Below are positions 1,030 through 18,480 of a stretch of DNA of 64,000 bases, in pieces. Made by a program: the position numbers and the translations under genes. The notes below the pieces were generated by a model that had not been told where the DNA came from, did no database searches, and was given only the letters and a program-made list of their open reading frames with translations. Positions within the stretch are counted from its first letter, which is position 1. The number at the start of each line of letters is the position of its first letter. Source of the DNA: Selenomonas sp. AE3005 (GTDB taxonomy: Bacteria; Bacillota; Negativicutes; Selenomonadales; Selenomonadaceae); assembly GCF_000686945.1 (NCBI RefSeq), contig NZ_JMME01000016.1:1-64000 (forward strand). Reading direction: 5' to 3'.

Positions 1030-2025
1030 ATGAACAATAAACCAAAATGGTGGCTAAGACTGCTCGTCGGCTTAGGCCTTCTCACCACCAGCACCGCAGC
1101 CATATCCGGAAGTGAGGCCTCAGCTCCCGCTCGCTATGACACCGCTATGGTACAGCTTATTGGCGAGCTGCACCAGTATGCACGTCTGCACCAGCCCCAC
1201 TTCCAACTGCTGGCTAATGGCGGCTCCCCGCTATATTTACCCATTGACGGCAACACGACTGAAAATGCCGCCCAAATGCTGCAAAATGTCGACGGTCAAC
1301 TGGCAGAATCTGTGTTCTTCGGCTTTAATCTGCAGGATGGACAGGAGACGCCTGCGGCAGAAAACAATTTTTTTCTGCACACCCTTGATACGGCTCGCAA
1401 CGGCGGCCTGCCCGTATTCGTCCTTGACTATGTGACAAATGCGGAACAGGCAGCAATATCCTACGAAAAGAATCTGGCGAAGGGTTACATTCCTTTGGCC
1501 TCACCCTACCGGGGCCTTGACGGCATACCGCCCTTCACTCCGCCTCATCTTAACGCTAAAGATATACACTCACTGGCAGAGGTGCAAAACTATCTGGTAC
1601 TACTCAATCCCGGCAAGTTTGCCTCCAGCGCAGATTATTTAAGCAGCCTGCAAAACAGTGATTACGATTTGCTGATTATTGACCTCTATCTGGAAAACCG
1701 CCTGCTGACAAAACAGGAAGTAGCCACGCTCAAACATAAAAAAAATGGCGGACGTCGTCTGGTATTTGCTTACATGAGTATAGGCGAGGCAGAAACCTAC
1801 CGCAATTACTGGCAAAAGGACTGGGATAAGTCCTTGCCCGACTGGCTTGATAAGCCTAACACAGACTGGCAAAACAACTATCGGGTAAAATTCTGGCGCC
1901 CGGAATGGAAGCATATACTATATGGCAGCCCCAATGCCTACTTGGACGAAATCATGCAAGCCGGCTTTGACGGTGCCTTCCTCGATGTCATTGATGTTTA
2001 CCAGTATTTCCAAAACAAGGAATAA
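1030..2025 (+). CDS. Secreted GH114-type glycoside hydrolase (endo-alpha-1,4-polygalactosaminidase-like, PelA hydrolase-domain family)
   Basis: A 331-residue exported protein. Residues 1-26 form a signal peptide (KWWLRLLVGLGLLTTSTAA). The remainder matches the TM1410/GH114 barrel as I know it: DLLIIDLYLE, then YMSIGEAETYRNYW, and a C-terminal FDGAFLDVIDVYQYF. These carry the conserved acidic residues at strand ends. Family members cut alpha-1,4-linked galactosamine polymers, and the N-terminal domain of Pseudomonas PelA belongs here. The gene is convergent with pgaABCD and about 6.5 kb from a Pel operon whose PelA homologue lacks this domain, so it may be the separated Pel hydrolase (inference). 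The ATG at 1030 follows AAAGG. Family assignment is good; substrate is untested. Confidence 0.8.
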   Translation: MNNKPKWWLRLLVGLGLLTTSTAAISGSEASAPARYDTAMVQLIGELHQYARLHQPHFQLLANGGSPLYLPIDGNTTENAAQMLQNVDGQLAESVFFGFNLQDGQETPAAENNFFLHTLDTARNGGLPVFVLDYVTNAEQAAISYEKNLAKGYIPLASPYRGLDGIPPFTPPHLNAKDIHSLAEVQNYLVLLNPGKFASSADYLSSLQNSDYDLLIIDLYLENRLLTKQEVATLKHKKNGGRRLVFAYMSIGEAETYRNYWQKDWDKSLPDWLDKPNTDWQNNYRVKFWRPEWKHILYGSPNAYLDEIMQAGFDGAFLDVIDVYQYFQNKE

Positions 2026-2574: not shown

Positions 2575-3840
2575 TTATCCCTTGATACCGCGGTCAGGGC
2601 TGACCCATACAGCCGTAGTGTTCATATCACGTCGGAGTCCTACAGGCGTTGCTACAACAGCGGAAAGTGCGTTGAAAATCCAGTACACCACAGGGTACCA
2701 TATTACCCAAAAATAACTTTTCAACAATGATTTATCATAACGTGAATCGATGAGAATACTAACTAAGAATTGAACCAGACACATAAGGGATATGACCGAT
2801 CCTTTCCAGCTGATAAGTGGATTGCCCAGGTCAGGCAGCATGGCAGAATAACCGCTGCCCACAATGTCAAACAACAGGCGAACGGTCCACAGTAATCCGC
2901 AAATGACAAAGGAATAGGCCCAAAAAACACCTAAAAAGTAATCTAAATAAACCGGCCAAATACGTCGTTCCTTGTAGTGACGCCATACATCGATATGAGT
3001 GCGGATAACTTCCACACCACCTTGTGCCCAGCGTTTACGCTGTACCCAAATGCCTTTCAATGTTTCCGGTACAAGCATCCAACAAACCATATTGGGTTCG
3101 TAACGTACATCCCAGAATTTTGTTTCCATTTTCCAGGTCATTTCGATATCATCAGTGATGGCCGTATTGCTCCACATACCAGCATTGATGATAGCCGTAC
3201 GACGCCAAGCTGCCACAACACCTGATACGGTCATAACCTTACCGATAATACGCTGCGTACGTTTTATCAGACCAATAACACTGGCGTATTCAGCTGTCTG
3301 AATCTTAGCCAGCAAACTGGTACGATTGCGAACCTTGGGATTACCCGTAACTGCCCCGACTCGGGGAAAGTTATTAAAATGCCATACAGCCCATTCAATT
3401 GCATGCTCGTCCAGCATGGAATCAGCATCCAATGTAACGATTATTTCACCATGGCTCATGGCAAAAGCCAGGTTCAGACCATTGGCCTTGCCGAGATTCT
3501 TTTCCATGTGCAGTATCTTGAGGCCGGGATATTCATCCATCAGACCTTCCAATACTTGCTGTGTATTGTCCGTGCTGGCATCATTGATAACGATAACTTC
3601 AAGATTTTTATAATGGTTAGCAAAGATAGAACGCACCGAATCCGCGATATCCCGTTCTTCATTATGAGCCGGAATAAAAACTGATACCAAGGGCTTATGC
3701 GTGAGCACAGGAGGATTTTTATCCCGGCCACGTTCCCTGCGCCAATAGAAGAAAATAGCACCAATTACCCAAATAAGACTCATGATAATTGGGTAATAGA
3801 ACACAAATTCCGCTAACCATAAAATGAATGTGTAAATCAA
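2575..3840 (-). CDS. pgaC: Poly-beta-1,6-N-acetylglucosamine synthase PgaC (GT2)
   Basis: A processive inner-membrane glycosyltransferase that polymerises UDP-GlcNAc. The GT2 signature residues are all present: VFIPAHNEE, VINDAST, LDADSM (DxD), TDDIEMTWK and QRKRWAQGG (QxxRW). N-terminal membrane segments (VFILIYTFILWLAEFVFYYP, IIMSLIWVIGAIFFYW) and three C-terminal ones frame the catalytic domain. An open frame extends to 3885, but AGGAGG lies just after the pgaB stop and points to TTG 3840, giving about 421 residues; E. coli PgaC has 441. The gene sits between pgaB and pgaD in a tight operon. The exact start is the only uncertain part. Confidence 0.93.
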   Translation of the reverse strand: MIYTFILWLAEFVFYYPIIMSLIWVIGAIFFYWRRERGRDKNPPVLTHKPLVSVFIPAHNEERDIADSVRSIFANHYKNLEVIVINDASTDNTQQVLEGLMDEYPGLKILHMEKNLGKANGLNLAFAMSHGEIIVTLDADSMLDEHAIEWAVWHFNNFPRVGAVTGNPKVRNRTSLLAKIQTAEYASVIGLIKRTQRIIGKVMTVSGVVAAWRRTAIINAGMWSNTAITDDIEMTWKMETKFWDVRYEPNMVCWMLVPETLKGIWVQRKRWAQGGVEVIRTHIDVWRHYKERRIWPVYLDYFLGVFWAYSFVICGLLWTVRLLFDIVGSGYSAMLPDLGNPLISWKGSVISLMCLVQFLVSILIDSRYDKSLLKSYFWVIWYPVVYWIFNALSAVVATPVGLRRDMNTTAVWVSPDRGIKG

Positions 3841-3865
3841 AATAAAAACTTTCCTCCTTGGAAAA

Positions 3866-5698
3866 TCACTTATCCCAATGGACAAAGCCCAACGGATAAT
3901 AACCGAGATGCTTCATGCCGGCAGCTTTTAGCGTTTGCATCTGCTTAGCAAAGATTTTGCTATCCAGCCAGCATTTATTATTCCAATCATAGGTTTGAAT
4001 TTTTACCAGAGTTTTGCCCATACCTTGATTATCTTTAACCACCTGAGCAATTTTCTTCAGATACTCGTAAGGCTTTTCCTCTTTGTCCATAAAGGGATAT
4101 GCCATAACTACAGTATAATCATACTTGCGCAGGCAATCTGTATAGCGTTGTCCCAGCCAGTTAGCTGCATCAGCATAAAGCAGGGTTCCGGCGTATACAT
4201 CGCGCATAATAACAGCATGAGGACGCACACTTTTAAAAGCCTTAATGGCACCATCAGCAGCATTGTCAAGTGCTTCAATTTTCCATTGGGTAAAGGCTGC
4301 CTGTTCATCTTTGTCCTTGATGTTAACTGCCAGTAAATCCTTGCCAAATTTTTGGCGGTAAGCTGCCTGTGCTGGCAAGGAAAAATCCTCATCCTGATTA
4401 AGATATAAATCATCCTGCAACAAGACACCAGCTATTTGAGTGTTAGCTGCTAAATCGTAAAATAATCTATTGACATGTTCAAGGCCTTTTTGGTCAAAAG
4501 GACTTAAACGGTGATACCAGCCTTTTTCCCCACGTGATTTAACTGCATTGCTATCATCCTGGCTTATCAGACTTTGATAATTAAGAGTTGGCAGCCACGC
4601 CATTACAATTATCTGTTGCTGTTGCAACCGGTTAGCCACATAATTAAAAATATCGGCTCGCACAGGAATTTGACTATTGGCAAAATATACCTCGTCTACA
4701 TTACCATCACCATCAGGGTCAGCAAACGCCTGCAGTGCTACAGTATTGATATTATTATTTAACAAATTGCTAAGCAACCCTGCAATATTCTGCTCATAAT
4801 GCTGCGAATTCTTGCTATAGATATTATCTAAGTCTACCTGTGCCATGCGGATGCCGGAAGAATCCCAGGTATCATGATTGACAGTCAGTAATTGTTGCAA
4901 CCGATTAACATCAAAATCACTTTCCATGATTATGCGCTTAGCATAAAGCCTAGCATCTTCCCCGACCTCATTTACACCACCATCCAACAGGAACGTAGCG
5001 TCCATGCCTGACTGTGTAGCGATATCTACAGCCTCTTTGGTATAGATGCCATAAGGCCAGACCATAGCCCTCGCCTTATGACCTAAGTTTTCCTGAAAAA
5101 GACTTTGTACTTCATTGATATCGTTGGCTATGCGCGTATGATACTCATCATCAGTTTCATAACGGCCATCGAAATAAAGATGACTGCCGACCACACCGTT
5201 ACGACCGCCCTGCGGGTTGATTGCCTGCTGTTTGTGCATAGCATGAGTATGGGAAACAACAGTCACCAGACCGCTGTCTTCCATTTCCTTCAATTCCGCC
5301 CAAGAGGCTGTGTCGCGTACATCATTAGGTTTTTCCTCATGGTTGGTCCAGGAACTGACAATAGCCAGCATGCCAGGAGCATGATACTTTTTCAGAAGAG
5401 GATATACCTTAGTGTAAAAGGAACGGTAGCCATCATCGAAGGTAATCATTACACTTTTGGCTGGCAAATTAAGTTCGCCACGGCAATAACGCACATATTC
5501 ATCCAAGCTGACGAAATGATAGCCTTCATTCTTAAGAAACTGCAGGTGATTTTCAAAACGCTGATGGCTGACAGCAAAGGCATCGCCAGCACGGTCAACC
5601 TCGTGATAACAAAGAATCGTCACATTGGCAAAAGCTCCATGAGCAGGCAGAATGCAGACAATACTCAGGCAGATAATTAAAAAAAGTTTTTTTAGCAT
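3866..5698 (-). CDS. pgaB: Poly-beta-1,6-GlcNAc N-deacetylase PgaB
   Basis: A two-domain periplasmic enzyme of about 610 residues (E. coli PgaB 672). After a signal peptide (LFLIICLSIVCILPAHGAFA) comes a polysaccharide deacetylase domain (about 25-250) with the catalytic TFDDGY motif and a metal-binding SHTHAMH segment. The C-terminal domain (about 290-610) resembles the GH153-like glycoside hydrolase domain of PgaB (VIMRDVYAGTLLY, TVVMAYPFM). It partly deacetylates the polymer during export. ATG 5698 is chosen because GGAGG sits 8 bases upstream; ATG 5701 directly before it overlaps the pgaA stop. It is translationally coupled to pgaA. No lipobox cysteine is seen, unlike the E. coli lipoprotein. 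Confidence 0.93.
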   Translation of the reverse strand: MLKKLFLIICLSIVCILPAHGAFANVTILCYHEVDRAGDAFAVSHQRFENHLQFLKNEGYHFVSLDEYVRYCRGELNLPAKSVMITFDDGYRSFYTKVYPLLKKYHAPGMLAIVSSWTNHEEKPNDVRDTASWAELKEMEDSGLVTVVSHTHAMHKQQAINPQGGRNGVVGSHLYFDGRYETDDEYHTRIANDINEVQSLFQENLGHKARAMVWPYGIYTKEAVDIATQSGMDATFLLDGGVNEVGEDARLYAKRIIMESDFDVNRLQQLLTVNHDTWDSSGIRMAQVDLDNIYSKNSQHYEQNIAGLLSNLLNNNINTVALQAFADPDGDGNVDEVYFANSQIPVRADIFNYVANRLQQQQIIVMAWLPTLNYQSLISQDDSNAVKSRGEKGWYHRLSPFDQKGLEHVNRLFYDLAANTQIAGVLLQDDLYLNQDEDFSLPAQAAYRQKFGKDLLAVNIKDKDEQAAFTQWKIEALDNAADGAIKAFKSVRPHAVIMRDVYAGTLLYADAANWLGQRYTDCLRKYDYTVVMAYPFMDKEEKPYEYLKKIAQVVKDNQGMGKTLVKIQTYDWNNKCWLDSKIFAKQMQTLKAAGMKHLGYYPLGFVHWDK

Positions 5699-5700
5699 CA

Positions 5701-7599
5701 TTACCACCTCCAGTTATAGCTGGCAGAAAATTGATAACCATCATTGCGTCGATTGTTCTCTGTGCTTGTTTGATTGAAATACTTGTAGATGGTCGTTCCC
5801 AAACGCAGCTGTTGATTATGTGGGAAATCCTTGGTATATTCCAATCTTATATGCGGGGTAAATTCCATGCTGTCATCATTGTCATGGCCCCAACCGAGGA
5901 CAGTTTCACATAACCAGGTGGTTTCAATCTGGGGATAATTCCATTTACGCTGCCAGCCGAGCATATAATCCTCCCGCCGTTCCGGAGAGTTATAGAACCA
6001 TACTTCATGGTCATAACTAGCACGACTGTATTCTAAGAGCAGCCGGTCGCTGAAATTATGCTTTACCTGCAGCAGATGATTTAATCCCACTGTATATTCC
6101 CAGTATTTATTTTGATCATCAAGATCAGCCCATTCATATTGAGCAGCCAACGCAGTTTTCGGTGTCAGTTGATGATTAAAACTGATAGTCTGGTATTTTT
6201 CACGAATGCTGTTTTTTACAGTACCGACATGATTATGCAGACGCATGCCGCGTGTATAGCCTATCTTGGCAGCGTCACCTATATCAAAGACAACTCCCAT
6301 ACTATAGCCGTTTTTGGCATCGTCAACATCATAGCGAATCCACTCACCAGTGATTTCTCCCCAGCCAAATTTTTTACGCAGACCGGATGTGCTTTGCCAA
6401 TACGCTGTACTATTATCGTCATCCTGCAACCAGCTGCGACGGACATCATGTGATAGATATATGTTATGCCCTATGTAATTATCATAGGTTATGCCAACAG
6501 ACTGTTCTTTGTTGCGCTTATTGTCTATAGAGTTTTCATAATAAGTAGTAAGGCTGTGCAGCTGCTGGTTTTCATACGCATTTTGCACAGTCAGGGCAGC
6601 CATATCGCTGTTATCCTCAGCTAAAAGTTTCTGCAGGCCGCTGCGTGCGTCAGCCAGAAGTTCATTATTCAAGTTATTTGCCGCTTGCGCCACCCTGGCA
6701 TCATGAACAATATCCTGGTCGTCACTTTGCAGCAGTTTTCGCAGGATAGAATCTGCCTCATGGTAATAACTACGGTCATCCAGTCGTTCATCACGCTGGA
6801 AATTCAGGTCTTCGTTGCTAAGGTCACGATTTACATTTACGAGATTTTGCGCATAAAGCAACTGATAAGTCTCTTTCTCAGCCGCATCCTTGCCCAGCAA
6901 ACCGAATAACTTTCGAGCAATTCCCAACTGGCCTTCCAGAATAAAGGCAGATGCATCGCCGGCAATGATATTATTGTAGCGTGGAGCAATGTTGGCAATT
7001 TTACTATAGGCTTCAACCGCTTGAGATTCATGTCCCATACGAACTAACGTATATGCATAGCCCAGCTGAACAAAGGGCACATTTTCCGTTTTTTCGTGAG
7101 AAAGAATCGATTCATATATTTTTTTAGCCAGTGGATAATTTTTTTGTCGCAAGGCGACTGCCGCTACATTTTCCAAGCCATATACCGGGAAAGTCTGCCA
7201 GTCTTTTACATATTCCTGAAAAACTGCCAAAGCTTTTTTCGGTTCATTACAAGCCCGCAAAGCCTGCAGATAGTCACTTAGCATAAATTTATCTACCCCG
7301 GGTTTTATATAAGGGGTTAAGATTGCCACTGCACGGCTGGGTTCATCATTATTTATATACATGGCAGCCCGTCGGGCATCCATTTCACGCAGAAAATCCT
7401 GCTGCCCAACAGCCAAAGCTGCTGAACGTGCCTGCTTAAAATAGTTTTCAGCAGCCACATAATCGTGTCGGCGAATAGCATCCTGCCCAGCTGTATTCAA
7501 CTGAGTGTAATCCTGTGGAGCAGCCTGAGCTGTTCCATACAAATTACCAGCCAGCAATAAGCCAATAAGCAGTTCGCTTTTTTGCCAAGTTTTATTCAT
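5701..7599 (-). CDS. pgaA: Poly-beta-1,6-GlcNAc export porin PgaA
   Basis: An outer-membrane exporter of about 632 residues. It starts with a signal peptide (LLIGLLLAGNLYGTAQAA), then a TPR superhelix (about 35-330, repeats such as AGQDAIRRHDYVAAENYFKQ and PLAKKIYESILSHE). The C-terminal part (about 360-632) is made of alternating amphipathic strands ending in YQFSASYNWRW, an aromatic C-terminus typical of OM barrels. E. coli PgaA is longer (807), so the TPR region is shorter here. It is the first gene of pgaABCD, and its presence shows that the host has an outer membrane. ATG 7599 follows AAAGGATAGG. Confidence 0.9.
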   Translation of the reverse strand: MNKTWQKSELLIGLLLAGNLYGTAQAAPQDYTQLNTAGQDAIRRHDYVAAENYFKQARSAALAVGQQDFLREMDARRAAMYINNDEPSRAVAILTPYIKPGVDKFMLSDYLQALRACNEPKKALAVFQEYVKDWQTFPVYGLENVAAVALRQKNYPLAKKIYESILSHEKTENVPFVQLGYAYTLVRMGHESQAVEAYSKIANIAPRYNNIIAGDASAFILEGQLGIARKLFGLLGKDAAEKETYQLLYAQNLVNVNRDLSNEDLNFQRDERLDDRSYYHEADSILRKLLQSDDQDIVHDARVAQAANNLNNELLADARSGLQKLLAEDNSDMAALTVQNAYENQQLHSLTTYYENSIDNKRNKEQSVGITYDNYIGHNIYLSHDVRRSWLQDDDNSTAYWQSTSGLRKKFGWGEITGEWIRYDVDDAKNGYSMGVVFDIGDAAKIGYTRGMRLHNHVGTVKNSIREKYQTISFNHQLTPKTALAAQYEWADLDDQNKYWEYTVGLNHLLQVKHNFSDRLLLEYSRASYDHEVWFYNSPERREDYMLGWQRKWNYPQIETTWLCETVLGWGHDNDDSMEFTPHIRLEYTKDFPHNQQLRLGTTIYKYFNQTSTENNRRNDGYQFSASYNWRW

Positions 7600-7658
7600 T
7601 AGCACCTATCCTTTCTTCTTGGTTCATTAAGATTCTATTAGAACAATCCTAGAAAAAA

Positions 7659-8544: not shown

Positions 8545-10749
8545 TTAGAAAGATTTATTCCACATCAGGCTCATCTTCCAGCCATGATACGAGTCAGAAG
8601 GACTACCACTGATGTTAAAACGCTCCAGCTTAACCCGCAGTTCCGATCTGTCATCCAGCCGATAGTCGTAGCCTAAAAGCAGAGCTTTCATATGACGATT
8701 TGAATCCCATTTGTTCAAGCGCCAGTTATAACTTTGACCATGAGTTTCGCCAAAGTTCAGCATCACATAGCCGCTTTGCTTTTTATCAAACTGATGACGC
8801 CAGCCCAGTCCGCCGTAATAGCGGTGCGTGCCCCCCGTATCCGCAGCCTGATAGTTTCCAATAACATAATACTGCAATGCATTTCTGCTGTCCATATCCT
8901 TATTTCCAAATAACTGCAAAATCCAATTTTCTCCATCGTAGTTAGTGCCAGTTCCATGGAGACTATTAACGTTAGTTATACTACCGGCCGCATCAGTGAA
9001 ATATCTCAACGTACTTTTATAATCGGACGATGTGGCATTTTCGTGAGTTAATTTCACTGCAAACTGATGATTGTCACCAATATGACGGTACTCCACTTCC
9101 TGGGTAAATTTATTCCCTGGGGCAATGTCTTCCAGCGATTCAGCATTTGCCGGCAGATAACCAAGACTTCTTTCAGCCTGAAGAGCCTCTCGTTCATTCT
9201 GGTTATAGCTGCGGCGGTACTTGTAATCCCCGCGAAAGGTATAGCTAAGCCGACCTGTAATGCTGTCCCGTTCAGTATATTTATGCGTTGCCTCGATACC
9301 AGGCGTAAACTGCCAGCCTTCGTTAAAGGAATTAAATCTAGCCAAGTTGTCAGCCATCATGGCATTTTGATGAACATTATCCTTGCCGGTGGGTACGTTG
9401 ATATTGAGAAAATATTTTACATCATTTATTTTATGGTCATTTTTATAACTTACCCCCAGGGTCGTATCTGTCCAACCGTTGACGCTCCCATCCGGCATAC
9501 CTGTATCCGATGACAACCAGCCTGTAGTCAGGGAAACATCCCACTTTTTTTCTGTAGCATAAAATTCAATCGGCTGATAGAGCTGATGACCATTATAGCC
9601 TGCACCATGCCAGGAATAATATTCAAAGCCACTGCTGATGCCTTTTCCCTCACCAAAATGCGCCAAGTCATAATCGGCTTTCGTTTTCCATTTTTCAGTT
9701 TCCACTAGATTTTGTTCAGCACTTACAACGCTGCTAGCAGCCTCTGCACTCCATTTTTCTGTCTCCGTGGCATAAGTTTCACTCTCATGCAGGTCTCTTT
9801 CCCCATCTGTCTGCTCTGTCAGCAAATCCTGTACCCGTTCTCTGGCCTCACGCTCAGCATCTTCGGCCGCCTCTTTAGCATCCTGCAAGGCATCCAGCTG
9901 ATTATTAAGGTCATCGAGCAAAGACTCCGCACTATCCACTTCTGCATCTAATGCCTCCATCTGGCTGTCATATTCCTGCCACTGCGCCTCATTGTCTGAT
10001 TGTTCGGGGACAATTGCCTGCGCATTGCTGACCATAGCCATAACATCATTCAAACGATTTTGAGCATAGCCTACACTCTCCCAAGCCTTTCGAATGCGTT
10101 CTTCAAGGCCGTCGTTTCCTGTGTGCTGGTATCCCAATTCACGTCCCAGCTGCTCATATTTTGCCTGCATGCTCTGTCTGCGCCCTTGAACGTCCTGCAC
10201 CACTGATTCCTGCGCCCACACCTGAGGTGCAAAATCAGCTACAGCCTGCTGCGCGGCAATAGCCTCCCGGGTACGCTGCGCACTTTCCAGCTGCGCATTA
10301 GCCATCTCCTGTGCAATGCGCTGCATATTCATCTGCGCTTTTTCCAAATTTTGTTTTGCTTCGGCCAAGCCCTTTTCAGCCTCAGCCTTATCCTGTTTTG
10401 CTGTCTGCAAATCTTTTTCAGCCTGTATAAGCGCTGCTGCTGCCTCTTTAGCATTACGCCGTGCCTCATGAAAATCCCGTATCCGATTACGTTCATTACG
10501 TAATGATTCAAAAGCAGCCGGTATATCATTCATGACATTATTGATACCTGCAGCCTCACTATTCATAGCTGGTAATAAAGCCAGCGCACCAATCGAAGCT
10601 GCCTGTGCTGTCTGCCGCAGAGCCGCCTCCTCCTTCATTTTTCGTTTGCGGCGTCTGGTCATGCGCATACTTTGCATGACAAATCTTTTGTATCGTGGTT
10701 CTTCCTCTGCCTGTGCCAACCTGCGGCGGCGCTTACGGCTCATCCTCAT
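8545..10749 (-). CDS. Pel-operon outer-membrane protein: coiled coil plus C-terminal beta-barrel (unrecognised family)
   Basis: A 734-residue protein that I do not recognise. Residues 1-47 are strikingly basic (RKRRRRL, MTRRRKRKMK), followed by a hydrophobic core (AASIGALALLPAMNSEAAG) that looks like a signal peptide with a very long n-region. Residues about 78-210 and 250-345 are A/E/K/Q-rich heptads, a long periplasmic coiled coil. From about 370 to the end alternating aromatic strands (FEYYSWHGAGY, WDVSLTTGWL, WKMSLMWNKSF) form a probable OM barrel with a C-terminal Phe. Its ATG overlaps the pelG stop (ATGA), with AGGAGG upstream, so it is translationally coupled. No PelB or PelC is present. 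I infer that this protein is the OM exit of the Pel system, the coiled coil replacing PelB's TPR scaffold. Confidence 0.7.
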   Translation of the reverse strand: MRMSRKRRRRLAQAEEEPRYKRFVMQSMRMTRRRKRKMKEEAALRQTAQAASIGALALLPAMNSEAAGINNVMNDIPAAFESLRNERNRIRDFHEARRNAKEAAAALIQAEKDLQTAKQDKAEAEKGLAEAKQNLEKAQMNMQRIAQEMANAQLESAQRTREAIAAQQAVADFAPQVWAQESVVQDVQGRRQSMQAKYEQLGRELGYQHTGNDGLEERIRKAWESVGYAQNRLNDVMAMVSNAQAIVPEQSDNEAQWQEYDSQMEALDAEVDSAESLLDDLNNQLDALQDAKEAAEDAEREARERVQDLLTEQTDGERDLHESETYATETEKWSAEAASSVVSAEQNLVETEKWKTKADYDLAHFGEGKGISSGFEYYSWHGAGYNGHQLYQPIEFYATEKKWDVSLTTGWLSSDTGMPDGSVNGWTDTTLGVSYKNDHKINDVKYFLNINVPTGKDNVHQNAMMADNLARFNSFNEGWQFTPGIEATHKYTERDSITGRLSYTFRGDYKYRRSYNQNEREALQAERSLGYLPANAESLEDIAPGNKFTQEVEYRHIGDNHQFAVKLTHENATSSDYKSTLRYFTDAAGSITNVNSLHGTGTNYDGENWILQLFGNKDMDSRNALQYYVIGNYQAADTGGTHRYYGGLGWRHQFDKKQSGYVMLNFGETHGQSYNWRLNKWDSNRHMKALLLGYDYRLDDRSELRVKLERFNISGSPSDSYHGWKMSLMWNKSF

Positions 10750-12227
10750 TTTTTCTCACCTCCTGCCGTTTCCAAATTCACATATTTGTCACCATACAAC
10801 CATAGCGTAAATTTTGTCAAAATTCCATTAGTAGCATTGTAAAACACAGGTTGGGAACAAAAGACCAAATAATTTATGCGTTTGGCGAAATGATTGAGCT
10901 TGATAAAGGCCCAAATAAAGGACAACGCTGCGGCCATAAAAAATGTAAACCCATAACTATATGTACCGCCAAAGTACAAGCCCCACACTCCCAAAACAAG
11001 ATTTGACAGAAAAAACACTGCCGACAGGCTCAGTACGCTTTTCTGATAGTCGAAGTAAACCAGCAGTATATATACCAGCTGCAGCAGACCTGTGAAAAAA
11101 GCGCCAAACAACAATACATTATACATGTTCACCTGATTGTAAGTAATTCCTGACCAACTCAGTAAATAATTACCAATCGCCAGTGCCACCAGGGTAAACA
11201 CTAACTGAAACTCAATTATGTGACGTAATTCGAACCACAACGTATGCAGCAAGTCTTTCCTGGCATCATCTATTTCCCTAAAGTTACCCTTTTGCGTAAT
11301 ATAAGTAAAATAATTCGCATAGCATTCATAGAAATTCGTTTCCACCGTTACCACAAACATCGTCATCAAAGGCAAAATGGACAAAAAAGCATAGAATGTA
11401 ACCACATCATAAATGGGAGAATACAGATATGTTCCCCCTACCAGTACCCCCCATTCTCCCTGCCAAATGATAAGGTTTGGTAAAAACAGCCCCAACATAT
11501 AAAAAGTTGCCGTAAAGAACAATCGCCAGTGCCGTTCAAAATAGGGCAGGAAAGCAAAGTTCTGCCCCATCTTGGGCCTGCCAAAATACTCAGTGATATG
11601 TAACAAAAAGAGCAAATTGATGAGCCCCATACCAATATCCATAGCTAAAAGCCCAGCTTGTTCTGCCTGCATTTCTGTTTGTGTCAAAAATACCCACACC
11701 AAAAAAATACTGGTAAGTACTCCGATTAGATAACTAATCAGCAGCCTGGAGTAACGCTTTACGGCTGACAGATAAACACTTTCTGTCCAAGCCAGCAAAA
11801 GTTCGGCAAAGAATAAATACCCCAACCATTTAGTCAAAAGAGGCAACGGCTTATCCCAAAAGAAAATTCCTGCGGCCACAGCCCCCAAAGACGTGAGAAT
11901 AGCCCCCATGCCAAACAGGGATGCTGTTGCATCGGAAAATCTGCCCAAAGACAGCGAATCTGCCAGGTAGCGGGTCAGTACCATAACAAAACCAGCAGAA
12001 AAAATCTGGGAAAATACAAAAGCATAAACCACTGAGGCCACAAAAATCTGCGCTGCCTCTCCTTCTACGCCATAATAGGCAAAAAGGCTCTGCACCGCCA
12101 GCACCATACTGGTCATCAAGGCAAAGGGGCCAGCAGTAATAATGGCCGAATAGGAATATGCTTTTATATGTCCGGCCGCTGTGCGGGCCGTAAATAATTT
12201 CTTTAGTTCAAAACCTACGCCTGCCAC
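10746..12227 (-). CDS. pelG: Pel polysaccharide inner-membrane transporter PelG
   Basis: A 493-residue polytopic protein with about 12 hydrophobic segments, of the PelG family, related to Wzx/MOP flippases. PelG works with PelD, PelE and PelF to move the galactosamine-containing polymer across the inner membrane. The start MAGVGFELKKLFTART is the family hallmark, and the large loop GQNFAFLPYFERHWRLFF is also typical. It starts 14 bases after pelF and its stop overlaps the next gene by 4 bases. The C-terminal tail (GDKYVNLETAGGEKK) is hydrophilic. Confidence 0.92.
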   Translation of the reverse strand: MAGVGFELKKLFTARTAAGHIKAYSYSAIITAGPFALMTSMVLAVQSLFAYYGVEGEAAQIFVASVVYAFVFSQIFSAGFVMVLTRYLADSLSLGRFSDATASLFGMGAILTSLGAVAAGIFFWDKPLPLLTKWLGYLFFAELLLAWTESVYLSAVKRYSRLLISYLIGVLTSIFLVWVFLTQTEMQAEQAGLLAMDIGMGLINLLFLLHITEYFGRPKMGQNFAFLPYFERHWRLFFTATFYMLGLFLPNLIIWQGEWGVLVGGTYLYSPIYDVVTFYAFLSILPLMTMFVVTVETNFYECYANYFTYITQKGNFREIDDARKDLLHTLWFELRHIIEFQLVFTLVALAIGNYLLSWSGITYNQVNMYNVLLFGAFFTGLLQLVYILLVYFDYQKSVLSLSAVFFLSNLVLGVWGLYFGGTYSYGFTFFMAAALSFIWAFIKLNHFAKRINYLVFCSQPVFYNATNGILTKFTLWLYGDKYVNLETAGGEKK

Positions 12228-12241
12228 TTTCCTTATGCCTC

Positions 12242-13657
12242 CTACACATACATTTGATAAATATCACGATAGCTTTCTAAAAAATGTTCATAAGTGTAAG
12301 CACGTTTTGTACGCTCATAGCCAATGTTTCCCATTTTTCGCCGCAGTTCAAAGTCTTTGCCCAGACGTATCATTTCCTTGGCCATGGACTCAAAATCCAT
12401 AGGTGCCACCACAGCGCCAGCCACGCCTAAATCATCGTTGCTATCTCCATAGATAAGCTCCCGGCAACAGCCAACATCTGTGGTAACGAAAGGACGATGG
12501 GCCGCAAAGCCTTCCAGTACCGCCAAAGGCTGTCCCTCACTGATACTGGAAAGCATCATCAAATCCATCTTTGGCAGATATTCAGCTACATTCACCGAAC
12601 CAGTAAACTCGACATTGGTTATCCCCAACATGGAAACAGTCTGCTGGCACAGCTCATAATACTCTTTGTCTTCACCATAGCCACCCATAATCACAAGTCT
12701 GGCATCAGTAAATTCCTCCTTAAACAGGAAGAATGCTCTTAGCAGTGTTACGATATCCTTAATAGGCACTACTCGCACCACAGCGCCAATTGTTAATGGC
12801 CCATCATGATCCTGCAGTTCTCCAATCTCAGCAAAACGCTCCATATGGACACCATTAGGCACCACACCAATCTTACCAGGGTCACAGCCCAAATCTTTCT
12901 CCAGATTAGCATTATGTTCAAACAGCGTATATACCCTGTTAGCGGTAGCGTAAGACAACTTGGCTAAATTATAAAAATACTGAATCCATACAGACTTAAA
13001 ATCTCCCTTGGCCCAATCACTTTTGATAATCTCCACTTCCCGTTCCCGAGAGTAAATACCATGCTCAGTGATGATAAAGGGCTTATGATAAATCTCCGCT
13101 GCCATAGCACCGATAACACCACAATACCCGGTAGCCACACTGTGATATAAATCTGCCTCTGGCAAATCCTGCTGTAATAGATACAACAATGGCAATAGCA
13201 TTGAGCGTATCGTCCAGAAAAAATCTGTAAACGGCAGATAGCTGTATTTTTCTATATATACCCGTTGAATCACATCAAAGAAGTCGCTGGACATAAAAAT
13301 GTCCAAAGAACTTGCAAAACGGCGGCGTTCGCGAAAAATAGAAGCCAGCTTTTTGATATTCAGCGGCTTACCGCCAATGACCAATTCATAAATAGCCTCT
13401 CGTTCTTCTGACGTTAAGATATTTTCCTGCATTTCACCTGACTGCTGATTCAATATCTCATCCAAAAATTCTTCCTGTACCCCTTTCAAGTTGGGCGGAA
13501 ATTTATACTTGAACGCGCCTCTATCCTTAGCTTCAGCACCTATAGAGTAGATAAAGAACTCGTGCTGCGGAAGTCCTTGAATGAGCATCTGACACCAGGA
13601 AGACACGCCTCCCACCACATAAGGGTAGGAACCTTCGGTTAGTAAACATATTCTCAC
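12242..13657 (-). CDS. pelF: Pel polysaccharide glycosyltransferase PelF (GT4)
   Basis: A cytoplasmic GT4-family transferase, 471 residues, that polymerises UDP-sugar into Pel. It has the PelF N-terminus (ICLLTEGSYPYVVGGVSSW), NGVHMERF in the linker and the EX7E catalytic/nucleotide motif SEGQPLAVLEG followed by VTTDVGCCREL. The open frame can be extended six codons, but GTG 13657 is preferred: AAGGAG lies 8 bases upstream and the GTGA overlap with the preceding stop is typical of coupling. It has no membrane segment and should dock on PelD/E/G. Confidence 0.93.
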   Translation of the reverse strand: MRICLLTEGSYPYVVGGVSSWCQMLIQGLPQHEFFIYSIGAEAKDRGAFKYKFPPNLKGVQEEFLDEILNQQSGEMQENILTSEEREAIYELVIGGKPLNIKKLASIFRERRRFASSLDIFMSSDFFDVIQRVYIEKYSYLPFTDFFWTIRSMLLPLLYLLQQDLPEADLYHSVATGYCGVIGAMAAEIYHKPFIITEHGIYSREREVEIIKSDWAKGDFKSVWIQYFYNLAKLSYATANRVYTLFEHNANLEKDLGCDPGKIGVVPNGVHMERFAEIGELQDHDGPLTIGAVVRVVPIKDIVTLLRAFFLFKEEFTDARLVIMGGYGEDKEYYELCQQTVSMLGITNVEFTGSVNVAEYLPKMDLMMLSSISEGQPLAVLEGFAAHRPFVTTDVGCCRELIYGDSNDDLGVAGAVVAPMDFESMAKEMIRLGKDFELRRKMGNIGYERTKRAYTYEHFLESYRDIYQMYV

Positions 13658-15477
13658 TGTTCCGGCTCCTTCCAATTTATCACAGTGGTGCTGCTATCCG
13701 TCTCTATAAGGTAAGCATCATCACCCACCTTTTTATATGTACCACCGCTAATGTCAGCGATATCCCGGCATTGCCGTAATATAAATCGCAAAGGCTGACG
13801 ATTATTCCCCGTAATGATAGTCATTTTATCCTGTTCGCGTTCCACTTTGTAATCCATATCCAGATAATCAGCAAAATAATTCATCAATTCCACATTTGTT
13901 ACTGCTCGCAAAAACGGGAACCGTGTATTTATTTCCGTTAGAAAATCCTTTAACCCCTGTTCCATATCCGCCCAGCTATAAGCCAGGCTTTCCTCGTAAA
14001 AAAGTTCATCCGGATGAACAAAGTGCGAAAAATTACCGATATAATTTAATATACTGATTTGTTCATACATATTTTGGCGCTTAGGATGATATCCAGCGGA
14101 AGTTCTAGGCAGTTCGTAAGTTCCATCAGCCTGACGCTCGTAATTCTGAATATAGGCCATTGCTTCTGCCGGACCATCATAAAGAGAAGAAAAAATCTTA
14201 ACTTCTGGAAAAACCTCCAAAATTGCGTCCCGTCCTTCAGGACTCAGAATATCTGACGGTGGTACATAGGTTCGCATCGCATAATCTGGATAAGATGCCT
14301 CAATATAACGCCGCAACTCCTGTAAAGACTCCACCATATCCTGTTTTGACGCCCAGGGAACATAATCCAGCTCATCTTCATTATATCCAGCAGGTGCTAA
14401 CGGTTGATGGTTATACCCATGCAGCCCCAGTTCTCCCCCCATCCGCAAGAGCTCACGTCCATAAACAATAAAACTATCCCGAGCTCGTCTGCCTGCTGGC
14501 GCTGGAAATGGTGCCTTGACCACATCACCATAGCTTTCAATAATCAAGCCTGTATATTTAAGGTCATATTCCTTGGCCACCTGCTGCATATAAGGCCACC
14601 AGCGGTAACGGTAAAAACTCTCCGTGGTCATGTGCAGTTCATCATAAATACGCGGATTTATCCCTTCAGGAACTGGCGAAGGAAAATCATCAATATAGAA
14701 AACCTTCGTACCTAAAACTGGATAAATGGTCTCCTGACCACAATGAGCCAGGATGGCTGTAAGGATACCTATATTGGTCTTGTCGTCTCTTACGACACCG
14801 TTATACACCAAAAATTTTCCCTTTCCGGCTTTATGTTCCCAAAGCAACGGCATATCATCTATTCCAGTGATATGTACCATTGCATCCGAAGTCAGCTGAA
14901 CCTTGCTGCAATTCGTATTGTAGGCTGACTCCTCTCCGAAATAAAAGCCCTTACCACCAAAAAGGAAATCTGTCTTCAAGTTAATGCCTTTGACATTGAC
15001 ATTGCCCCCTAAGTCAGCTATTCCAGCAGCAAGCAGAACATCCTGACTTGGCGCGTTTACGGCTTCTAAGGCCAGCAGCAATGCCGCTGTGCCGCCATTT
15101 TCTACATAAGCACGAACCTTATTCAGACTGACAACCCGGTTCAAATCACCAGTCACTATCAAAACGCCGCGATAATTATCCTTTATCTCAATCTCCATAT
15201 CATTTAAAGGAACTGATTTTGAATATTTTTTTTGCTGCGCAATCAGTTTGGACAAGCGATGCTCGGCAAAAACACTGGCAACATCTCTAGAATCATAAAT
15301 AATCAAAAAACTATCCCGAGACTCATCAAATTCGCCTTTATTGTCCAAAACATTCGGTATATTTGCTAAATTTTTTGCACTATCGAGCTTCAAAAAACCA
15401 TCCATGCGGCTGAATTGAAAAAAACACCCCAATAAAATAACAAAGGCGATTATGCCTGCAATCCCGCGCTTATCCAT
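13654..15477 (-). CDS. pelA: PelA-type deacetylase (DUF2194 domain), hydrolase domain absent
   Basis: A 607-residue membrane-anchored extracytoplasmic protein. Residues 7-22 are hydrophobic (uncleaved anchor or signal). Residues 55-260 resemble the middle PelA domain, with Rossmann-like strands (FLIIYDS, GVLIVTGDL). Residues about 275-530 form the deacetylase: YIDDFPSP supplies the Asp pair and GLHGYNHQPL the HxxxH metal site. The N-terminal GH114 domain of Pseudomonas PelA is missing, as in the split PelA reported for Gram-positive Pel clusters (recalled, not checked). It overlaps pelE by 8 and pelF by 4 bases. It is expected to deacetylate the polymer in the periplasm. Confidence 0.85.
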   Translation of the reverse strand: MDKRGIAGIIAFVILLGCFFQFSRMDGFLKLDSAKNLANIPNVLDNKGEFDESRDSFLIIYDSRDVASVFAEHRLSKLIAQQKKYSKSVPLNDMEIEIKDNYRGVLIVTGDLNRVVSLNKVRAYVENGGTAALLLALEAVNAPSQDVLLAAGIADLGGNVNVKGINLKTDFLFGGKGFYFGEESAYNTNCSKVQLTSDAMVHITGIDDMPLLWEHKAGKGKFLVYNGVVRDDKTNIGILTAILAHCGQETIYPVLGTKVFYIDDFPSPVPEGINPRIYDELHMTTESFYRYRWWPYMQQVAKEYDLKYTGLIIESYGDVVKAPFPAPAGRRARDSFIVYGRELLRMGGELGLHGYNHQPLAPAGYNEDELDYVPWASKQDMVESLQELRRYIEASYPDYAMRTYVPPSDILSPEGRDAILEVFPEVKIFSSLYDGPAEAMAYIQNYERQADGTYELPRTSAGYHPKRQNMYEQISILNYIGNFSHFVHPDELFYEESLAYSWADMEQGLKDFLTEINTRFPFLRAVTNVELMNYFADYLDMDYKVEREQDKMTIITGNNRQPLRFILRQCRDIADISGGTYKKVGDDAYLIETDSSTTVINWKEPEQ

Positions 15478-16381
15478 GCATTACCGCCTCCCTGTTTATA
15501 TCCTTGTCCCAGTAGCGAATAGCTGTTAGCGCTTCTTGGGAAAGGTCAATAGGACAAGCCTTTAATTCGCGGATTTTCTGCTGCATTTTTTTTGGTTTGC
15601 GCCAGCTTTGATAGAGCTTTATATACATCATGTAGCTTTCCTCCTTATGGGGAAAATGCTCTCTTAATTCCGCACAAACAAGTTCCGCCTCTGAATAATT
15701 GGCGGTAGACAACAGCTGCTCTATTTCCTCCGTATAATATTCAAGCTTGTCTGGGCACATTTTTTTTAAATAATCCAACAGGCCAATATAATCGCCCTGT
15801 TTTTTACGATAAGTCACATGGTCAATAAATTTTTTCTGTTCCAAATAGCTCTTCAGCATTTGGGCATACTCTGCCAACAAATCCACATTTTCCTGGCCTT
15901 CGCCGCTGACAATAACCGACTCCTTGGCAAATAATTCATTTTCCAATTTTTCCATCCGCGCTGTCAGCATAGCAACTGCATAGTAAGCAATTTCTCTGTC
16001 CCGGTCATGCATAGCCATTTGCAAAATGCTTTCATTATCCACCACTGCCTGTTTAATGGCATCAGTAAAATAATGTCGTTTCTTTTGCACATCATCTACC
16101 AAAAACGCATCATTCAAGGGAATAATATCTTCTCCCAAATGCGTCCCCCGGAAAAAAGCCTCTTGTTCCTTTTCAATTTCCGGCTGACGGTCTTTAGTCA
16201 AGTTCAACAAGTAACAGCTAAGACGATAACCCAGCATCAGCAACAAACCAAAAACAGGTATAGCAAATACAATAACTGTTTCCGTCACCACATGCAAGCG
16301 TGGCTTGCGCTTGATATTTCCCAGAAAGTACAGCAGTGTCAGCACAATATGCAGTAGCGAAAATGCATAAATATCCATCAT
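15470..16381 (-). CDS. pelE: PelE-like inner-membrane protein
   Basis: A 303-residue protein with two N-terminal membrane helices (IYAFSLLHIVLTLLYFLGNI and ETVIVFAIPVFGLLLMLGY). A mostly helical cytoplasmic region follows, including TPR-like helices (LLSTANYSEAELVCAELREHFP, EESYMMYIKLYQSW). This is the topology of PelE, which joins PelD, PelF and PelG in the synthase complex. PelE is poorly conserved, so the call rests on topology, size and position between pelD and pelA. The ATG overlaps the pelD stop. Confidence 0.8.
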   Translation of the reverse strand: MMDIYAFSLLHIVLTLLYFLGNIKRKPRLHVVTETVIVFAIPVFGLLLMLGYRLSCYLLNLTKDRQPEIEKEQEAFFRGTHLGEDIIPLNDAFLVDDVQKKRHYFTDAIKQAVVDNESILQMAMHDRDREIAYYAVAMLTARMEKLENELFAKESVIVSGEGQENVDLLAEYAQMLKSYLEQKKFIDHVTYRKKQGDYIGLLDYLKKMCPDKLEYYTEEIEQLLSTANYSEAELVCAELREHFPHKEESYMMYIKLYQSWRKPKKMQQKIRELKACPIDLSQEALTAIRYWDKDINREAVMHG

Positions 16382-18480
16382 TCCACCGCCTTACAAACAA
16401 CGGTTGCCACACCGGCCCCCTGCAGGCGTTCCTGGACCATGGCCGTAACAGCCTCATCAGCATCCGGCAGCAAAATATATACACCATTGCTGCCTACCCC
16501 TACGAAATCTTCATTACGGATAACGTGACTGAGACGACCATCCAACCCAGCATAGTCAAGATTTGACATGTCAACCTTAAGCACAGCCACCGAAAAATCG
16601 GCCTGCAGGTTTCGTCTGTTTTCCAGTTCTTTGATGATTTTACGGAACTCTTCTGCATGCAGAATACGCGTACCGGAAACAAAGCGCTTTTCCTGTATAC
16701 CTTGCTCATAACGATAAGCTCTGGCCATCGATGCTGAAATCAAGCGCGTGGTAATCGACAAGAGATTCTGCTGATACAGACTCCACTGTTCAAAGCTCAG
16801 ACCAAAAATCGCAATCACGGCAATAACCTTATCCTGATGAACAATCGGCGCCGCCAAATCCGGTGTATCTTTTACCAGTTCCTTGTTGACGAAGACAGTG
16901 CGTTCCTGCAGGATGTTTTGCAGATATGGATAGTCAGCCACACGCAGGGAGCGTGGCTGACGGGACGCCAGCTTACCCATACGGATTTTCTGACGCAAAT
17001 AATACCCATCAGTTCCTACCACATAAATGGCTATATTATCCACTGTAAGTATCTGCGCTGTTACTTCAGCTGCCTGATTGAAAATATTTTCCGGTTCTAT
17101 ACTATCAAGCCGCTTGATAATGCGGTAAAGCCGGCCAATACTGTCATCAGAATTGACAATCTGCCGGTATAACTTATCCTTAACCGCCAGATTTTCTTCA
17201 TAAATACCACGCAAAAAATTATTTCTATCATCAGCCTGCCTTTTATGCCATTGCACAGATTCCTGTTCGAAACGCCGGGCATCAGCAAAATATCCGGTCA
17301 ATGCTGCTGTAAACAGGTAGGCAGTGATATGCAGTATATTTTCCGGCACATAAGTAAGCGAAATAAGCTCTCCGCCCCTGGATAACGAACCCACAATAAA
17401 TATCAGGATTGATATGACCATGGCAATAAATGCCTGCCGCTTACCATAAAGCAACCCCATAGTTCCAATGTAAACAAAATTGACATCCATCTGTGTCTGA
17501 GGATTTACTGTCGTTCCTTGCTGCCAATAGGCAATCCCGGCCATAAGCGCTGCCCCAATGATATTTTCACCGTAAGGAATGAATTTTTTGTACCAGGCGC
17601 GCCAACGAATACTACGAACACGATTTTGCGCCTCAACCCGGTCAGCCTCTACCTTGGCCTGAATATAATTCCATGTCTGTGCCAAGGCCGATTTTCTGTC
17701 ATATTTCAGCTGCCAGCCCAACTCATGTTTGGCCATACTGCTATCCAGTACCGGCTGCACATAAGGAAATGCCTTGAACCCTTTTGTATCATCATTTATA
17801 TCCGGCAAATCCGTTACATCCCTTATCCATGAGGCAAACGCCCCTGCCGTCAAGCCATTGCCCGTACCCAAATTGAGTTCTTCGTTCTGACAGCCACGAG
17901 CTATAGCCCGATAAATACCATACACAGCATCTGACGAATACAAAAAATCCCGTGGCGTTGTTTCATCATCCATACGGGGTAAAATCTCTTTTTTAATGCT
18001 GGCATATAAGGTACGCGCCACCAATCCGTCTTTAGGACTGCTATCAGGGCCATAAACCTCCGGTAACCGAATGATTGTCACGGGAATGATGGCCCATTCA
18101 GACCAAGCCCTGACGGCCTGTTCTGCCACCACAGCCATACCATCAGCAGCCCGTTCTGCCGTCTCGTCCTTAACTGCGGCTGCTGTAGATACGAAATATA
18201 CTGATTCCACCCCATACTCATAAGCCAGCGCCAAAATGTCGGCAAGACGTTGCAGGGCATCAATCCGCTCAGCAGCCAGCCGCTCTGCCGGCCATACGTA
18301 AACAAGCACCGGAATATTATGGATACGCAGAGTTTCTCTTGTCTGCTCCAACGACCCCGTTGCACTAAAATACTCCCAATCTTCCTTTACGAATAGTCTC
18401 TCCAGCTGGTTATCCCAAAAGGGCCTTGCCCCTGTCAGCATAACCTTGCGTTTCAGCTTGTTGTCATGCTGTTCACCCAT
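16378..18480 (-). CDS. pelD: PelD: c-di-GMP receptor of Pel synthesis, with N-terminal epimerase-like domain
   Basis: A 700-residue protein with four parts. Residues about 10-265 resemble an NAD-dependent epimerase/SDR (VYFVSTAAAV, RDFLYSSDAVYGIYRAI, LNLGTGNGL), but the glycine-rich loop is poor (LTGARPFWDNQL) and no clear YxxxK is seen. Residues 300-400 hold four membrane helices. Residues about 440-590 are GAF-like. Residues 600-700 form a degenerate GGDEF domain: RNED at 655-658 is an RxxD c-di-GMP I-site, while the active loop reads GSNGV instead of GGDEF. It should therefore bind c-di-GMP without making it and switch on Pel synthesis. It is the first pel gene, 18 bases after holA. Confidence 0.9.
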   Translation of the reverse strand: MGEQHDNKLKRKVMLTGARPFWDNQLERLFVKEDWEYFSATGSLEQTRETLRIHNIPVLVYVWPAERLAAERIDALQRLADILALAYEYGVESVYFVSTAAAVKDETAERAADGMAVVAEQAVRAWSEWAIIPVTIIRLPEVYGPDSSPKDGLVARTLYASIKKEILPRMDDETTPRDFLYSSDAVYGIYRAIARGCQNEELNLGTGNGLTAGAFASWIRDVTDLPDINDDTKGFKAFPYVQPVLDSSMAKHELGWQLKYDRKSALAQTWNYIQAKVEADRVEAQNRVRSIRWRAWYKKFIPYGENIIGAALMAGIAYWQQGTTVNPQTQMDVNFVYIGTMGLLYGKRQAFIAMVISILIFIVGSLSRGGELISLTYVPENILHITAYLFTAALTGYFADARRFEQESVQWHKRQADDRNNFLRGIYEENLAVKDKLYRQIVNSDDSIGRLYRIIKRLDSIEPENIFNQAAEVTAQILTVDNIAIYVVGTDGYYLRQKIRMGKLASRQPRSLRVADYPYLQNILQERTVFVNKELVKDTPDLAAPIVHQDKVIAVIAIFGLSFEQWSLYQQNLLSITTRLISASMARAYRYEQGIQEKRFVSGTRILHAEEFRKIIKELENRRNLQADFSVAVLKVDMSNLDYAGLDGRLSHVIRNEDFVGVGSNGVYILLPDADEAVTAMVQERLQGAGVATVVCKAVE

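Follow-up and report, generated by a model that had tools for sequence, protein, structure and literature searches.

A stalk-and-barrel protein encoded after pelG is probably the outer-membrane exit component of the Pel system in Selenomonas

Main finding

The 734-residue protein encoded at the end of the pel operon of Selenomonas sp. AE3005 is probably the outer-membrane exit component of the Selenomonas Pel system, with its part in transport deduced from predicted structure and gene context. An earlier reading of the same DNA, made from the letters alone (the sequence-only reading), had proposed that this gene encodes a new type of Pel exit channel; the structure models and the gene contexts described below support that proposal, the passage of polymer itself being what they would imply. 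The window referred to throughout is the whole stretch of 64,000 nucleotides analysed.

The pel operon of the Selenomonas window

All genes of the operon are on the minus strand. pelD (16378..18480) encodes a protein matching the SDR/epimerase family PF01370 (E 4.3e-9) and a GAF domain; pelE (15470..16381) was assigned by its conserved position and has no Pfam family above the cut-off; the deacetylase-type pelA (13654..15477) matches DUF2194 (PF09960, E 5e-123); pelF (12242..13675), for the glycosyltransferase, matches DUF3492 (E 1.4e-78) and GT4-type domains; and pelG (10746..12227), for the inner-membrane Pel transporter, matches PF16933 (E 2.2e-120). The ORFs and, for all but pelE, the Pfam matches bear out the sequence-only reading, which had listed these five genes. 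Its description of the operon as a series of overlapping genes holds for the other neighbours but not for pelF and pelG, which are separated by a 14-base gap. The candidate gene (8545..10749), supported as an ORF, by homologues and by AlphaFold2 models, does overlap the pelG stop with its start, as had been said, the two sharing the sequence ATGA. Its start codon is preceded by AGGAGG, and a thiamine-transporter gene, identified from the ORFs and Pfam, begins 22 bases past the end of the candidate gene.

In PelD the epimerase-like (SDR) domain is N-terminal and is accompanied by the GAF domain; towards the C-terminus, an RNED (RxxD) motif can be made out by eye at the place where a GGDEF-like domain would end. 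DUF2194 we take, from gene context, to be a marker of Pel deacetylases. No GH114 match was found in the window PelA with Pfam. Since the fusion of PelD to an epimerase domain is known in clostridia and streptococci (excerpts of PMC7112168), the operon is, judged by its sequence, of the Gram-positive pelDEADAFG type.

Sequence of the candidate protein

The candidate can be divided into three parts, all on the minus strand: an Arg/Lys-rich N-region with a predicted signal peptide (residues 1–66, 10552..10749, from the sequence), a helical stalk of two long helices with a low-confidence tip (residues 67–365, 9655..10551, from the AlphaFold2 model), and a C-terminal beta barrel (residues 366–734, 8545..9654, from AlphaFold2 and DSSP). 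The hydrophobic stretch of the N-region, which ends in SEAAG, is presumably a signal peptide, and by eye cleavage would occur near SEA/AG. Between the signal peptide and the barrel lie 242–333 aa in 25 family members. The N-region also carries unusual repeated MRMSRKR/MRMTRRR motifs, with three copies by pattern in some relatives; among the ORFs searched of the fetched loci, at least two MRMSRKR-like repeats were found only in relatives of the candidate.

No Pfam family matches the window protein at E<=0.1, and hence it has no TPR, SLH or PF24604 match. At E<=1, three of the 25 family members (L061, L084 and L078) match PF13557, which the window protein does not. The match of the L061 barrel (2.1e-6; 28.4 bits against a cut-off of 22) covers 105 residues, and those of L084 and L078 are under the cut-off. 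L061 is a protein 66% identical to the window candidate; its match points to a barrel, not to what the barrel does. Searches of Pfam, NCBIfam and PDB did not place the protein clearly in any family unconnected with export, a finding that would have spoken against the exit-channel proposal. Coiled-coil look-alikes obtained with the full-length profile against PDB and with individual members against NCBIfam were not taken as homology, and the barrel profile found nothing among PDB sequences at E<=10.

Unusually long members of 869–1194 aa are encoded at L065 5073-8657, L169 7684-10536, L170 7016-9799 and L171 7441-10050; the L065 protein has a long insert after barrel strand 7, within the loop.

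Predicted structure and fold comparison

The full mature candidate was modelled by AlphaFold2 with 17 relatives. The model (mean pLDDT 85.3, pTM 0.64, with low confidence at the tip between the helices) has the two-part fold anticipated from the sequence, long helices followed by a barrel-like C-terminus: helices occupy mature residues 6–140 and 184–297, and beta strands run from there to the C-terminus. The barrel modelled separately reached a mean pLDDT of 91.2 and a pTM of 0.83, which makes the barrel a highly confident prediction. Its DSSP string contains 21 strand segments, which we read as 16 membrane strands and, on the periplasmic side, seven short turns, a count obtained by joining bulge-split pieces and taking 173–181, 213–223 and 229–241 as loop extensions.

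Among the structure matches listed, the barrel-only model aligned with the polysaccharide exporters PgaA (Z 18.6), BcsC (Z 18.1) and AlgE (Z 17.0), and also with CdiB (Z 19.6), BamA (19.3) and porins (about 17–18); the full model aligned with PelB at Z 18.1, tied with other barrels among the matches listed. As the exporters score like CdiB, BamA, CymA and the porins, the comparison shows a fold, not a function. OmpM is not named among the matches listed for either model, which excludes nothing. Net lumen charge, by a crude estimate, ranged from -8 to +4 in 23 members and was -1, near neutral, in the window protein. The PelB lumen is reported as anionic (excerpts of PMC12141448); an acidic lumen was rejected as a mark of Pel transport here, as none was clearly visible in the 23 members by this crude estimate.

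Distribution and linkage to pelG

Counts over 100 genomes and over 380 Negativicutes genomes include the present Selenomonas genome. With the whole candidate protein as query, 32 of 100 genomes matched at E<=0.001. Three of these 32 (G016, G056 and G081) were not counted as having the family, with a short fragment or a coil match only, and because of these matches the barrel alone was used for the 380-genome searches. PelG matched in 29 of the 100 genomes, over the cut-off in 28. In the larger set the barrel-only profile matched 66 of 380 genomes at E<=1e-6, usually with one gene copy per genome, and PelG was found in 59: both were present in 57, pelG only in 2, the barrel only in 9 and neither in 312 (Fisher p 1.8e-55, a guide only because the genomes are related).

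The two genes are also adjacent. In 52 of the 57 genomes with both, the barrel match lies on the same strand 461–1665 bases after pelG, a spacing that is the room of the stalk. The remaining five comprise one genome with the barrel 6.8 kb from pelG in the same cluster (G034), one in which the gene is split over contigs with its coil part after pelG (G032), and three with barrel and pelG on different contigs (G024, G048 and G292). As for the two genomes with pelG only, the contig ends 52 bases past pelG in G020, and in G176 a coil-like ORF after pelG is cut by the contig end. The question raised with the sequence-only reading, whether the gene follows pelG in other Negativicutes, can thus be answered in the affirmative for genomes of seven families. 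Named relatives are mostly from Selenomonas or Selenomonadaceae, with more distant ones in Anaerovibrio and Megasphaera, in keeping with a genome resembling that of Selenomonas ruminantium.

In one genome (G070; L089 9171-12578), PelG and the relative of the candidate form a single ORF of 1135 residues. The joint, RRSVAAALAVFVAGYASPLWA, is a signal-peptide-like stretch, and no in-frame ATG occurs in the 50 residues before RRSVAAALAVFVAGYASPLWA. The sequence of this single case suggests either that a joint precursor is cleaved by signal peptidase or that the assembly is in error.

PelG proteins of 705 and 772 aa were noted at L119 10412-12529 and L121 10415-12733, in Cetobacterium and a Fusobacterium vincentii record. 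Their C-terminal extension has a lipobox-like LSGC/LGGC start and YDxxGYN-type repeats. Directly after PelG (L119 12519-13436, L121 12734-13684) is encoded a protein of 305–316 aa, barrel-like by eye, which to judge from its sequence and place is perhaps a different Pel exit in Fusobacteria. In Fusobacterium nucleatum, a pelG operon is responsive to putrescine (excerpts of PMC12826042).

Search for known exporters

The sequence-only reading had noted that the operon contains neither a TPR-barrel PelB nor a PelC lipoprotein. The PelB barrel profile PF24604 has no match in 100 genomes, the present one among them, which bears out the absence of PelB from the operon and shows no PelB barrel elsewhere in the same genome. 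Since the same profile did find PelB in a Caballeronia record used as a positive control, a hidden PelB was rejected. For PelC, no such ORF was seen in the operon among ORFs of at least 100 aa, and one Caballeronia sequence used as query gave no match in this genome, a weak search run without a positive control. Comparisons of the candidate barrel with PelB, window PgaA and Fusobacterium barrel sequences gave no support for a relationship, these being weak, single-sequence comparisons. Among the scanned neighbours of family members, no other exit protein was recognised by Pfam.

Relatives in other gene clusters

In five of the nine barrel-only genomes (G297, G304, G129, G156 and G157), the gene is located in a GT2-synthase cluster. 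The Pfam scan took in parts of all five clusters and found GT2 in each. In addition, it detected GGDEF, a DUF2334 deacetylase over the cut-off and BcsB in G297, BcsB in G304, a polysaccharide deacetylase over the cut-off in both G156 and G157, and, under the cut-offs, deacetylase and bactofilin matches in G129. In two loci (G070 C19 and G157 C14), the gene is beside a cellulose-synthase-like gene with GT2 and PilZ domains, after which come a gene of unknown family and then MBOAT, AlgX-like and GH5 genes. The assignments were made by Pfam in G070 and, in G157, by Pfam for GT2 and PilZ and by similarity for the rest; from their gene content, both loci look like an acetylated-cellulose operon.

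In a tree of 45 barrels the two cellulose-type sequences form one clade, association with GT2 needs two changes, and the Pel-linked sequences do not form one clade. The tree, in which some sequences (L160 above all) are long-branched and of doubtful placement, fits a switching of partners.

Six genomes carry a copy away from pelG and, among the neighbours scanned, outside recognised polysaccharide clusters: G024 and G048, with pelG on another contig, and G047, G061, G162 and G198, which have no pelG; G292, with pelG on another contig, is left out of this count. The copies of G061 and G162 are near a phosphofructokinase gene (L083 9443-10666; L161 1798-2877). That of G047 adjoins a type II secretion ATPase gene, and at a distance of 6 kb the opposite strand carries a GT2+PilZ gene. 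The copy of G198 is on a short contig where one neighbour was scanned and gave no Pfam match, and for that of G048 two neighbours were scanned.

The exit-channel idea can be widened from Pel to several kinds of polysaccharide-synthase cluster. In Negativicutes, gene context links the stalk-plus-barrel proteins with no fewer than two further types of synthase cluster, so that the family would be a general exit module for synthase-dependent polysaccharides. More tentatively, in a reading somewhat less likely than not, the family would constitute an undescribed TPR-free exporter class of diderm Firmicutes, built on a helical hairpin of about 20 nm that connects the barrel with the synthase in the inner membrane, swapped among Pel, cellulose-like and GT2-BcsB systems, and in one lineage made as a PelG polyprotein cut by signal peptidase.

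Proposed role and alternatives

According to our proposal, the candidate precursor would be secreted by means of its signal peptide and fold into the outer membrane as the predicted beta barrel, its N-terminus being on the periplasmic side. Its pair of long helices may reach over the periplasm to the PelDEG/PelA complex, the stalk then doing the scaffold job that TPRs do in PelB, PgaA and BcsC. Pel would be made by PelF, pass through PelG, be partly deacetylated by PelA and leave via the barrel. If straight, the helices (135 and 114 residues, at 0.15 nm per residue) would measure about 20 and 17 nm, and the modelled TPR scaffold of PelB is more than 20 nm long and may span the periplasm (excerpts of PMC12141448), a correspondence which suggests that the stalk replaces the scaffold and that the barrel is the exit. 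What the analysis shows is gene order, co-occurrence, a predicted fold and the other synthase contexts; from these we infer the location in the outer membrane, the contact with the inner-membrane complex and the passage of polymer. Counting against an exit role are the generic fold, the near-neutral lumen of the crude estimate, the stray copies in six genomes and, in the weak single-sequence comparisons, the lack of a sequence link to the PelB or PgaA barrels.

The copies kept in some genomes without pel would also suit a protein that is an outer-membrane anchor, its barrel serving as a foot while the coiled coil keeps a grip on the Pel machinery, on peptidoglycan or on the finished polymer and Pel leaves by another route. 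Negativicutes already possess a coiled-coil-plus-barrel tether of this kind, OmpM (excerpts of PMC10628300). We consider an anchor unlikely: an SLH match is absent from the window protein and from the 24 relatives scanned singly, on which ground an OmpM-like tether was rejected, the gene is usually present once per genome and mostly in polysaccharide clusters, and the neighbours scanned offer no other exit protein that Pfam recognises. Less probable still is a porin for the uptake of Pel fragments freed by a neighbouring GH114-like hydrolase. A GH114-like gene lies immediately downstream of 20 of the 49 barrel ORFs, porins belong to the same fold class, and the name of PF13557, the barrel family matched by L061, refers to phenol degradation; but the other 29 (fragments included), among them those of cellulose-like and GT2 clusters, have no such neighbour, the position and overlap of the gene are tied to pelG, and a porin needs no long periplasmic stalk. 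In the window the GH114-like gene (1030..2025, plus strand; PF03537, E 5.9e-17) is displaced beyond the pga genes, and elsewhere it often directly follows the exporter gene.

The window contains a further barrel protein, which the sequence-only reading does not mention, encoded by a PgaA-type gene (5701..7605, minus strand; TPR plus barrel, with weak TPR and porin Pfam matches) located 0.9 kb downstream of the candidate at the head of pgaB and pgaC, pgaC being so named because its sequence, read by eye, is GT2-like. On account of its strand, its proximity and these matches it could be supposed to export Pel besides its own polymer. Yet the genes that it heads are pgaB and pgaC, and both the candidate and the thiamine-transporter gene stand between it and pelG. 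At E<=1e-10 it has relatives in 19 of 100 genomes; among the 28 genomes whose PelG match exceeds the cut-off, only 6 have one, the present genome included, and therefore it was rejected as a general Pel exporter; that it should export Pel in the window seems very improbable. We regard the stalk-and-barrel protein as the better candidate for the Pel exit. The row of pgaA, pgaB and pgaC (2575-7605) places a classical TPR-barrel exporter beside a TPR-free one.

Novelty and significance

The candidate is not described in the literature searched, whose coverage lies outside most subscription papers and all preprints, nor in the excerpts of PMC7112168, PMC7112194, PMC12141448, PMC10628300, PMC5491611, PMC13254593 and PMC12826042. 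The same literature does not address the route by which diderm Firmicutes move such polymers over the outer membrane. The family offers a reason for the absence of PelB from the pel operons of diderm Firmicutes, gives one named gene to delete, and can serve as an annotation marker for polysaccharide gene clusters of Negativicutes. The arrangement suggests a monoderm-type operon that acquired a new exit in a cell with two membranes.

Comparison with known systems

A 16-strand barrel is common to PelB, BcsC and PgaA (excerpts of PMC12141448). Like PelB, the candidate is encoded in a pel operon and has a C-terminal barrel predicted, by our reading, to consist of 16 strands, as well as a long periplasmic part of similar reach. 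Unlike PelB, it has long helices in place of TPRs, no PF24604 match and no sequence similarity that we could find; the Selenomonas operon has no PelC-like gene, and the candidate gene comes after pelG, whereas pelB comes after pelA in the Caballeronia control. With PgaA and BcsC it shares the barrel fold (the Z scores given above), and its relatives are found beside BcsA-like and BcsB genes, but it has no TPR match and no sequence match to the window PgaA. OmpM, also of the class Negativicutes, carries an SLH domain at its N-terminus, and its coiled coil is triple (excerpts of PMC10628300). The candidate resembles it in having a coiled coil and then a barrel in a single chain, and differs in lacking an SLH match, in having two long helices and in its location in polysaccharide clusters. 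PF13557 (Phenol_MetA_deg) barrels are matched by the relative L061 and not by the window protein; that profile has no stalk, and nothing in the name of the family points to export.

The operon itself is like the Gram-positive pelDEADAFG operon of Bacillus cereus and others in its core genes and its deacetylase-only PelA, and like those of clostridia and streptococci in its epimerase-fused PelD. Hosts of the Gram-positive operon have no outer membrane and no need for an exit protein; the Selenomonas operon differs in adding the gene for the candidate exit protein after pelG. No sequence relation to the known exporters compared was detected. The candidate probably does the same job in synthase-dependent export as those exporters, with the same class of barrel and a different scaffold.
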